NCBI GenBank assembly: GCA_001805695.1
Contig: MHGT01000019.1
Span: 45,438 to 79,470, forward strand
From: Omnitrophica WOR_2 bacterium RIFCSPHIGHO2_02_FULL_67_20
GTDB taxonomy: Bacteria; Omnitrophota; Gorgyraeia; Aquiviventales; Aquiviventaceae
Direction of reading: 5' to 3'
DNA: 34,033 nt
The position numbers and the translations under genes were made by a program. The notes under the pieces were generated by a model. The model worked only from the letters and a program-made list of their open reading frames with translations. It ran no database searches and was not told the DNA's origin. Positions 3,263 to 32,173 of this stretch are shown one piece after another (within the stretch, counting starts at the first letter, position 1; each line of letters begins with the position of its first letter).

Positions 3263-3265
3263 CAA

Positions 3266-3338
3266 ATTTCGGATTTGCGATTTCGGATTTCGGACCGGCG
3301 GCGTTTACTTCCGAAATCCGCAATCCGAAATCCGCAAT
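3266..3338. repeat. Inverted word element, ATTTCGG type (7-bp units, 4 + 4)
   Basis: Four tandem 7-mers (ATTTCGG, ATTTGCG, ATTTCGG, ATTTCGG at 3266-3293) are followed by a 17-nt loop and four opposite 7-mers (CCGAAAT, CCGCAAT, CCGAAAT, CCGCAAT at 3311-3338). The arms are about 86% complementary. The element fills the gap between the enoyl-CoA hydratase stop (3346-3348) and the start codon of the downstream dehydrogenase (3262). Confidence 0.9.
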
Positions 3339-3345
3339 CTGCCTG

Positions 3346-5466: not shown

Positions 5467-5543
5467 AGTCCGTAGTCCGTAGTCGATAGTCCGTGGACGG
5501 GCCAGCTGACGCGCTATGGACTACGGACTGCGGACTATGGACT
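5467..5543. repeat. Inverted word element, AGTCCGT type (7-bp units, 4 + 4)
   Basis: Four tandem 7-mers starting at 5467, 5474, 5481 and 5488 (AGTCCGT, with one AGTCGAT) face four opposite 7-mers starting at 5516, 5523, 5530 and 5537 (ATGGACT, ACGGACT, GCGGACT, ATGGACT). The loop is about 20 nt. It lies between the thiolase stop (5551-5553) and the start of the 3-hydroxyacyl-CoA dehydrogenase (5460). Confidence 0.9.
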
Positions 5544-12263: not shown

Positions 12264-12620
12264 CTAGGCGGGAATGAGCGGGAATTTTTCGGAGAGGCGT
12301 CCCAGATAAGCAGACAAACGTCGCTTATCCGTCTCTGGCATCTCGAGGAAGGCGACCCCGAGATCGAACTGTTCGCTGTACGGGATGGACCGGAACCAGG
12401 CGGTACGTCCTCGGGCGGAGATCGGCCCCTCCCCGGTGGAGAGGATGAGCTCGAGGTTGAACTGGGTGGAAACCGGAAAAGCGGTCGAGCTGATGCAGCA
12501 CACGCCGCCGATCGAGATATCCTTGGTGAGCGTTTCGAGGAGGCGCGGAGAGCGCGGCAGGTGCAGCCGCACCGGCCGGTAGGCGCGAACCCGTGAGCTT
12601 GTCCGCCGTTCGTTAAGCAT
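12264..12620 (-). CDS. PilZ domain protein (second copy)
   Basis: 118 residues, a lone PilZ domain. The Arg motif region reads RVRAYRPVRL and the second motif DISIGG fits [D/N]xSxxG. A C-terminal helix (ETDKRRLSAYLGRL) completes the fold. It is divergently oriented from the exeA-like secretion ATPase gene, with 192 bp between them that hold a 38-bp palindrome and the promoter of the other gene. c-di-GMP control of the pilus/secretion machinery is a common role for such proteins, but that is inference here. Confidence 0.83.
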   Translation of the reverse strand: MLNERRTSSRVRAYRPVRLHLPRSPRLLETLTKDISIGGVCCISSTAFPVSTQFNLELILSTGEGPISARGRTAWFRSIPYSEQFDLGVAFLEMPETDKRRLSAYLGRLSEKFPLIPA

Positions 12621-12693
12621 GGCAACAGGCTACCAAAGTGTCCGCGCGGCGTCAAGCACGAAGTGGCTGTCGCCAGCCAGCGGCCAAGCGTCC

Positions 12694-12731
12694 TCCCGGG
12701 TAAACGTTTCCCGGGAAACGTTTACCCGGGA
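12694..12731. repeat. Perfect 38-bp palindrome in divergent promoter region
   Basis: The sequence is built from self-complementary words: CCCGGG, then AAACGTTT, CCCGGG, AAACGTTT, CCCGGG, joined by single T and A. The whole 38 bp equals its own reverse complement. A further partial match (GCGTCC left, GGACGC right) extends it. It lies 74 bp left of PilZ codon 1 and about 36 bp right of the edge of the plus-strand -35. Confidence 0.92.
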
Positions 12732-12766
12732 CGCAGGCTGGGAACGCCCGTGAGGCGCGTCCCTGC

Positions 12767-12795
12767 TTGCATCATGCCTGCCGCCGCGCTACAAT
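12767..12795 (+). promoter_or_regulatory. Sigma70-type promoter for the exeA/gspB-like pair
   Basis: TTGCAT (12767-12772), 17-nt spacer, TACAAT (12790-12795). The ATG at 12813 lies only about 11 nt past the expected transcription start, so the leader is very short and the Shine-Dalgarno match is weak. Confidence 0.6.
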
Positions 12796-12812: not shown

Positions 12813-13634
12813 ATGTATCTCGAATATCTTGGCCTGCGTGAAAAGCCGTTCTCCATCACGGCCGACCCCTCGTTCCTCTACCTCTCCCGCAAGCACCGCG
12901 AGGCGCTCTCCCACATGGTCTACGGCATCCGGGAGCGCAAAGGCTTCGTCGAAATCACCGGCGAGATCGGCACCGGCAAGACCACGCTCTGCAAGGCGCT
13001 CCTGCGCCAGCTCGACCCATCGACCAGGACGGCGCTGATCCTCCAGCCCCAGCTCTCGGAACTCCAGCTGCTGCAGTCCATCGTCCAGGACTTCGGCCTC
13101 AACCCGATGCGCGGCAACAACCGGCTCGGCCTCTTCACCCAGCTCAACCAATTCCTCCTCGAAGAAGCTCAGCTGGGCCGCAACATCGTCCTCGTCATCG
13201 ACGAGGCGCAGAACCTCAGCCTGCGGCTCCTGGAGCAGATCCGCATGCTCTCCAACCTCGAGACGGACAAGCAGAAGCTCATCCAGATCATCCTCGTCGG
13301 CCAGCCCCAGCTGCGCGAGAAGCTCGCCCTGCCCGCCCTCGAGCAGCTGCGCCAGCGCATCGGCGTGCGCTACCACATGATGCCGCTCGACATCGACGAG
13401 GTCCGCACGTACATCCAGCATCGCCTGCGCGTCGCAGGCTCGGACGGCGGGCTCGAATGGACGCCGGAAGGCCTGGATGAGGTCTACCACCTCTCGCGGG
13501 GCATTCCCCGCCTCATCAACCTCATCTGCGACCGCAGCCTGCTCGCCTGCTACGTCTTCCGCGTAAAGCGGGTGGACGCCGACATCGTCCGGCACAGCTA
13601 CCAGGAACTCTCGGGGCAGGTGTTGGTCTCGTAG
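12813..13634 (+). CDS. GspA/ExeA-like AAA ATPase
   Basis: 273 residues. Opens with the family signature YLGLREKPFSITADPSFLYLS. Walker A is GEIGTGKT (50-57), Walker B IVLVIDEAQNL (about 125-135), and an arginine-rich AAA lid follows. It corresponds to the cytoplasmic ATPase half of ExeA; the transmembrane and peptidoglycan-binding part of Aeromonas ExeA (~550 residues) is absent. Such ATPases help assemble the type II secretion or pilus secretin through the cell wall. The next gene, 12 nt on, is the expected GspB-like partner. Product family confident, exact machine unknown. Confidence 0.88.
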   Translation: MYLEYLGLREKPFSITADPSFLYLSRKHREALSHMVYGIRERKGFVEITGEIGTGKTTLCKALLRQLDPSTRTALILQPQLSELQLLQSIVQDFGLNPMRGNNRLGLFTQLNQFLLEEAQLGRNIVLVIDEAQNLSLRLLEQIRMLSNLETDKQKLIQIILVGQPQLREKLALPALEQLRQRIGVRYHMMPLDIDEVRTYIQHRLRVAGSDGGLEWTPEGLDEVYHLSRGIPRLINLICDRSLLACYVFRVKRVDADIVRHSYQELSGQVLVS

Positions 13635-15405: not shown

Positions 15406-15512
15406 CACCACAGAAACACAGAATGCCACAGAGACACAGAGAAGACCTCAACATCCACCCTGCTCTGCCTGCTCTCTTCTGTGCTTCTGTGGGTTTCTGT
15501 GTCTCTGTGGTG
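15406..15512. repeat. Inverted word element, CACAG type (8-10-8 spacing, 4 + 4)
   Basis: Four CACAG words at 15409, 15417, 15427 and 15435 face four CTGTG words at 15479, 15487, 15497 and 15505, across a 31-nt loop. Spacing is 8-10-8 in both arms. It fills the gap between the NAD(P)HX epimerase stop and the aroB start. Confidence 0.9.
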
Positions 15513-20286: not shown

Positions 20287-20301
20287 TCATCCGCCCGGCA
20301 T

Positions 20302-20379
20302 CGCTGATGAACGCTGATGACGACGCTGATTCACGCTGATATCAGCGACAATCAGCGTTGAAATCAGCGGGGATCAGCG
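20302..20379. repeat. Inverted word element, CGCTGAT type (10-12-10 spacing, 4 + 4)
   Basis: Four CGCTGAT words at 20302, 20312, 20324 and 20334, then with no gap four ATCAGCG words at 20341, 20351, 20363 and 20373. All eight are exact. Spacing is 10-12-10 in both arms, while the 3- and 5-nt spacers do not pair. It lies between the glycine-zipper gene and repeat copy C, in the only stretch carrying two element types side by side. Confidence 0.95.
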
Positions 20380-20389
20380 TTACCGCAGA

Positions 20390-25381: not shown

Positions 25382-25467
25382 GAATTTCGGATTTTGGATT
25401 TTGGATTTTGGATTTGCCGTACGGGAAATCAACCAATCCAAAATCGAAAATCCAAAATCTAAAATTC
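25382..25467. repeat. Inverted word element, GGATTTT type (7-bp units, 5 + 5)
   Basis: Five 7-mers from 25382 (GAATTTC, then GGATTTT-type units at 25389, 25396, 25403 and 25410) face five opposite units from 25435 (AATCCAA type at 25435, 25442, 25449, 25456 and a partial at 25463). The arms differ at 3 of 33 positions. It is a conspicuous AT-rich patch inside a GC-rich gene cluster. Confidence 0.9.
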
Positions 25468-30387: not shown

Positions 30388-30406
30388 GAAGAGCCGGGCC
30401 CGCTCA

Positions 30407-30497
30407 GGAGGACGCAGATGACCGCTGATTGCTGCGCAGATCACCGCAGATCAGCGAAAATCTGCGCTCTGTCATCTGCGGCAATCTGCGTCCTCCT
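30407..30497. repeat. Inverted word element, CGCAGAT/CGCTGAT type (4 + 4)
   Basis: Words at 30413, 30423, 30435 and 30445 (10-12-10) face ATCAGCG/ATCTGCG words at 30450, 30460, 30474 and 30484 (10-14-10). The outermost AGGAGGACGCAGAT is nearly perfectly mirrored. It lies between the ychF stop (30515-30517) and the OCD gene start. Confidence 0.88.
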
Positions 30498-32056: not shown

Positions 32057-32164
32057 ACCTCCACTGGTGGGGTCAGACACCTCGCTTCAGCCACCCGACG
32101 GCGAGGTGTCACCTCCACTGGTGGGGTCAGACACCTCGCTTCAGCCACCCGACGGCGAGGTGTC
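32057..32164. repeat. Perfect 54-bp tandem duplication
   Basis: Two identical 54-bp units (32057-32110 and 32111-32164), followed by AGACCCC which completes the last inverted arm. Each unit holds GGGGTCAGACACCTCGC and a facing GCGAGGTGTC arm, 16 of 17 bases complementary in the second unit (32123-32139 with 32155-32171). On the coding strand the end of unit 1 reads GTGGAGGT and is the ribosome site of the transporter gene. Confidence 0.95.
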
Positions 32165-32173
32165 AGACCCCAA

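Follow-up and report, generated by a model that had tools for sequence, protein, structure and literature searches.

The window analysed here, a stretch of 34,033 nucleotides (C19:45438-79470), comes from the metagenome-assembled genome of an uncultured Omnitrophota bacterium, an assembly of 845 kb in 42 contigs with an estimated completeness of 73%. A gene for a PilZ-domain protein (12264..12620, minus strand; Pfam PF07238, 1.7e-12) and a gene for an ExeA-like AAA ATPase (12813..13634, plus strand; PF13401, 6.6e-29) diverge from a common intergenic region, as the preliminary description of this DNA had stated. Promoters were assigned to both genes on the basis of conservation only. The predicted PilZ promoter (12628..12655, minus strand) consists of TTGACG (12655-12650) and TAGCCT (12633-12628), and its TTGAC-type -35 box is conserved in relatives. 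The predicted exeA-like promoter (12767..12795, plus strand) consists of TTGCAT (12767-12772), a 17-bp gap and TACAAT (12790-12795), and the relatives show TTGnnn...TANAAT. The latter had been called a good promoter; it is conserved, but TTGCAT-17-TACAAT scores below the threshold of a consensus scan. The two -35 boxes are separated by a spacer of 111 bp (12656..12766, no strand), and midway in it, 38 and 35 bp from the boxes, lies the sequence TCCCGGGTAAACGTTTCCCGGGAAACGTTTACCCGGGA (12694..12731, no strand), which equals its own reverse complement across the full 38 bp. The symmetry ends at the flanking pair 12693/12732 (C/C). Within the palindrome, CCCGGG and AAACGTTT alternate as previously described; the latter, searched with up to one mismatch, has no further occurrence in the window. 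The number of perfect 38-bp palindromes expected in the window from its base composition is 1.6e-6, the runner-up in the window measures 22 bp, and 60 first-order Markov simulations yielded palindromes of up to 30 bp, against 38 bp in the real sequence. The earlier judgement that such perfection is not due to chance was thus borne out.

Conservation in relatives had been proposed as a check, and its outcome was negative for the palindrome. The nearest relatives found are at most 86% identical in the ExeA-like protein, and the nearest named ones are mostly groundwater Candidatus Omnitrophota MAGs. In fifteen relatives PilZ and exeA lie side by side in divergent orientation. The 38-bp palindrome is absent from their orthologous PilZ/exeA spacers. 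Since the promoters are kept where the palindrome is absent, the palindrome is dispensable for this promoter pair. In ten relatives with a short spacer the script measured 6-31 bp from one -35 box to the other, whereas other relatives carry material of their own: L071 has a 63-bp spacer with three TCTGGAGCTC units, L089 a 72-bp spacer with AGGGGTCAGACCCC / AGGGGTCTGACCCCT, and L083 a 126-bp spacer. CCACGGAA-type words occupy the spacer in L079, where the exeA promoter was not called by the script, and in L087, whose whole intergenic gap is only 68 bp, the rule applied by the script made the two -35 boxes overlap and so gave no distance. The spacer therefore tolerates different repeats in different genomes and perhaps attracts them.

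The preliminary description had also suggested a genome search for second copies, and these were found. The palindrome contains a near-palindromic word of 13-15 bp (GGTAAACGTTACC / GGGTAAACGTTTCCC) that is present in about 16 copies at nine intergenic loci of the same genome. Composite-query BLAST located them on contigs C1, C7, C9, C17, C19 (the window copy), C30, C31, C32 and C42, by which we name them below; the copy number is thus low, nine loci in 845 kb of a 73% complete genome. The 13-mer GGTAAACGTTACC has 9 exact matches in the genome, the 10-mer GGTAAACGTT has 12, and CCCGGGTAAACGTTT has 10 when up to two mismatches are allowed, against 0 for the reversed-pattern control. The word occurs singly, as inverted doublets (window copy and C30) and in short arrays (C17 and C1, tandem with a 15-bp period). 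The C30 copy, TCCCGGGTAAACGTTACCCCGGTAACGTTTACCCGGGA, is an inverted doublet of near-perfect symmetry that equals the window copy in size; the remaining copies are C32 (ACCCGCTTCCCCGGTAAACGTTACCCGGGGAGCGGGT), C42 (ACCGCTTCCCAGGTAAACGTTACCCAGGAAGCGGT, C42:17643-17675), C9 (GCTTCCCGGGTAAACGGTTCCCAGGAAGC), C7 (GGGTGAACGTCACCCGGGTAACGTTTACCC) and C31, which holds a single word and a decayed one. In the fuller copies the word is flanked by self-complementary arms, CSYCTTCCCG...CGGGAAGCGG. Five stem pairs inside the word are kept in 13-16 of the 16 aligned copies, and the outer arms agree less, with CGTC in the window, C30 and C17 copies and CCGC or CTGC in the others. Covariation rests on a sole compensatory change among the 16 words, from an A-T to a G-C pair at C7.

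In the window, the first copy of the word, GGGTAAACGTTTCCC (12698..12712, plus strand), is palindromic apart from one bulged T, and the second (12713..12727, minus strand; GGGAAACGTTTACCC as read on the plus strand) is its inverse, so that the 38-mer is an inverted doublet of a 15-bp word. Because that word is itself palindromic save for the bulged T, the 38-mer looks like a palindrome built of palindromes. The CG-to-CG distance of the two words is 14 bp, equal to that in the C30 and C7 copies. The left outer arm GCGTCC (12688..12693, plus strand) matches the CGTC-type outer arm of the C30 and C17 copies, and in the predicted DNA fold the arms resume past a 3-nt offset or bulge, where GCGT (12688-12691) pairs with ACGC (12731-12734). 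The single-stranded DNA fold of the window element has a predicted energy of -22.6 kcal/mol (z = -5.8), and its RNA fold has z = -4.9. However, the C9 and C1 copies fold as DNA no better than shuffled sequence, indicating that the family as a whole does not depend on forming a hairpin or cruciform. The earlier proposal of a cruciform-forming site is therefore possible for the window copy, but does not extend to its relatives C9 and C1.

The word is private to this genome. None of the 26 other genomes in the family contains GGTAAACGTTACC, and the 383 other genomes of the class contain eight isolated single matches, compared with four for the reversed control. These eight matches look chance-like: they lie in unrelated contexts, and none of them is in a palindromic CCCGGG context. 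No match to CCCGGGTAAACGTTACC was found in IMG/VR viral contigs.

Each of the nine loci is intergenic with respect to the inferred genes, whose calls were based on ORFs and Pfam only. Besides PilZ/exeA-like, the divergent pairs are M24 peptidase/NuoJ and a gene without assignment/short-chain dehydrogenase. Other copies lie beside CstA and a converging gene, between SpoVG and a RAYT gene (14 bp past the SpoVG stop codon), between a lipid-A acyltransferase gene and LptC, between the codirectional cupin and Lpd genes, next to GpsA, and next to tRNA-Thr. These neighbours form no recognisable regulon, and several copies are not at promoter positions. A tRNA-linked attachment site was considered and rejected, as a tRNA adjoins the C17 copy only.

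The RAYT gene next to the C42 copy is the sole PF01797 gene of the assembly (C42:16944-17537) and encodes a 198-aa protein in which the HIH and YIERNP motifs are visible. The C42 repeat copy is located about 105 bp from this gene, and a decayed copy of the word, CTTCTCGGGTAACCGTCACCCG, lies past its opposite end. However, the gene is immediately bounded on both sides by a different double palindrome, GGTACCAGGTACTCCAGGTACCTGGTACC, with a GGTACC word (L163 1247-1275 and 1899-1933), which occurs as a doublet at only one further place (C16:26182-26210). Since the gene is bounded by this other word, it may not encode the enzyme for the family of the 38-mer, and the proximity of the repeat copies to it could be coincidence. 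A class-wide protein search for a cognate RAYT was unsuccessful, the closest homologues of the C42 protein (53-62% identical) bearing other end words. The quarter of the genome that the assembly lacks may encode the cognate enzyme, or the enzyme may be extinct. In members of the same family, a double palindrome or part of one stands at either end of the RAYT gene, for example AAAGTGTCAGACACTTGAAGTGTCTGACACTTT (L174), AGCAGAAAAAGTACCGCGTACTTTTTCTGGT (L181) and AAGGTGACAGTCACAGCTTGTGACTGTCACGTT (L194). At about half of 30 RAYT loci the two flanks share more 10-mers than shuffled flanks do, in a count that was rough and used crude flank borders. The double-palindrome design is typical of RAYT/TIRYT ends. 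The terminal words of the related RAYT genes of L174, L181, L194, L216, L219 and L220 are unrelated to one another, which suggests that the sequence recognised by the transposase turns over rapidly in Omnitrophota.

From sequence alone, the most natural alternative is an operator for a dimeric or tetrameric regulator, as the preliminary description had proposed. In the form considered here, two adjoining sites of the LacI/GalR type (GGTAAACGTTTCC, central CG) would bind such a regulator of PilZ and exeA, and the other copies would form its regulon. The word, a palindrome with a central CG, resembles operators of the LacI family, the window copy occupies a central position between divergent promoters, and the C9 and C32 copies are likewise upstream of promoter-like sequences. 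Nevertheless, we consider this explanation quite unlikely. The LacI helix-turn-helix domain PF00356 is absent from the assembly (73% complete), whereas the same search was positive in 9 of 14 control genomes; the nine neighbourhoods are unrelated, with copies also past stop codons and between converging genes; and relatives possess the same promoter pair without the palindrome. In addition, the spacing of 14-15 bp corresponds to about 1.4 helical turns, which would be awkward for dimers bound side by side. The strong predicted hairpin, as DNA and as RNA, could instead point to a structural or RNA element acting in place, such as a cruciform, a site for gyrase or a nucleoid protein, or an insulator between the divergent promoters, and secondary roles of this kind have been reported or proposed for REPs elsewhere (PMC2817692, PMC3733652). 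Against it, the element is upstream of both predicted promoters and outside both transcripts, it has no T tract (for which reason a terminator was rejected as well), relatives do without it, and several copies fold weakly; we consider such a role in place highly improbable.

An explanation that dispenses with a transposase is a non-mobile palindrome family, in which hairpins at the replication fork would have given rise to the palindromes and their copies through template switching or gene conversion. The perfect window copy, the near-perfect C30 copy and the tandem 15-bp arrays of C17 and C1 would all fit local hairpin-templated copying. This process alone, however, does not explain the presence of one word at nine loci, and the sister genomes contain RAYT-bounding palindromes of the same design, so we regard it as unlikely, too.

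We therefore favour the interpretation that the 38-mer is a copy, in doublet (REPIN-like) form, of a genome-specific family of REP/TIR-like extragenic palindromes that was inserted into the PilZ/exeA spacer, and we consider it probable that this family was spread by a Y1 transposase. It agrees best with one of the three suggestions in the preliminary description, that of a compact relative of the word arrays. The repeat unit would be the near-palindromic word GGTAAACGTTACC and its variants, with arms in the fuller copies. It would most likely have spread as a single-stranded hairpin, mobilised by a RAYT/TIRYT-type Y1/HUH transposase, and one such element would have entered the spacer between the two promoters. 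The perfect symmetry would then reflect an inverted REP doublet that is either recent or kept symmetrical through hairpin-templated repair.

The closest known systems are the repeats associated with RAYT-like genes. Such genes can be bounded by TIRs, some of which are double palindromes and some of which constitute moderately abundant families of single, dimeric or clustered repeats (Di Nocera 2013, PMC3733652); TIR-associated tyrosine transposases (TIRYTs) belong mostly to TnpA-Y1 subclass 2.1 (PMC6006769). Like these TIRs, the family described here is self-complementary or double-palindromic, short and moderately abundant, with singles, dimers and clusters, and the sister genomes have transposase genes bounded by such repeats, with words that vary by lineage. 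It differs in that no cognate transposase was found for the word of the 38-mer in this assembly or among the class-wide homologues, the Y1 transposases of sister genomes being bounded by other words, and in that GGGGWSAS, a motif common to many TIRs but not all, occurs neither in the word nor in its arms. With REP/REPIN/BIME elements and their RAYTs (Nunvar 2010, PMC2817692; PMC3116915) the family shares an extragenic location, palindromy, restriction to one genome and a RAYT gene nearby. REP doublets that form hairpins have been described as the mobile unit (Bertels and Rainey 2011, PMC3116915), and the folding of two inverted REPs into one larger hairpin has its counterpart in the window and C30 copies. 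Yet the halves of the 38-mer abut without a spacer, and nine loci contrast with tens to hundreds of copies. No shared GTAG/GTGG foot was present at the word edges of the 16 aligned words. In GTAG REPs inverted copies flank the RAYT; in C42 the immediate flank is the GGTACC word, and the word of the 38-mer lies farther out, intact on one side and decayed on the other. The CGTC at the outer arm of the window, C30 and C17 copies recalls CGTC-tagged REPs (PMC3733652); however, the unpaired end CGTC, stem of 8-9 bp, loop of 4-5 nt and CCA-like tail described for these do not fit, and CGTC is here partly paired and limited to a subset of copies. Because the GT(A/G)G foot, GGGGWSAS and the CGTC design all found no match and the sole RAYT gene of the assembly has another word at its immediate ends, we did not file the family under GTAG REPs or proven TIRYT repeats; the best name for it is REP/TIR-like extragenic palindrome in doublet form. 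A limited literature search returned no prior report of REP/TIR-like repeats in Omnitrophota, to which this interpretation would extend such families. The locus illustrates cleanly how a single promoter spacer has been enlarged by repeats that differ between genomes, and it cautions against taking every perfect palindrome between divergent promoters for an operator.

More speculatively, each Y1 transposase of the Omnitrophota might write its own private palindromic word, many intergenic arrays including the 38-mer might have been made in this way, and the spacers of divergent promoters might be preferred targets, with the word differing per genome. If this tentative idea is true, the same promoter spacer holds a different word in each genome.

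Several other repeats were observed. Near the C17 array, GGTGGCGCAGCGGCAGAACCCGTCGCAGCCGACAC occurs twice (L165 about 1248-1283 and 2284-2322), and a similar stretch, GGGGTGGCGCAGCGGCAGGACCCC, is located in the PilZ/exeA spacer of L083. The window has further inverted word arrays at 270-385, 3263-3341, 5467-5536, 15426-15510, 20296-20385, 25382-25467 and 30406-30497, with the words AATCTGCG, CGGATTT, AGTCCGT, CACAGAG, ATCAGCG and GGATTTT. Each consists of repeats of a short word and, on the far side of a short centre, of the inverted word; these arrays are larger than the 38-mer but analogous to it. At 32068-32172 of the window, two copies of TGGGGTCAGACACCTCGC lie 54 bp from each other and precede the near inverse GCGAGGTGTCAGACCCCA; this stretch resembles the word bounding the L174 RAYT gene (GTGTCAGACAC), and GGGGTCAG within it conforms to GGGGWSAS, the motif reported for the TIRs of TIRYTs.
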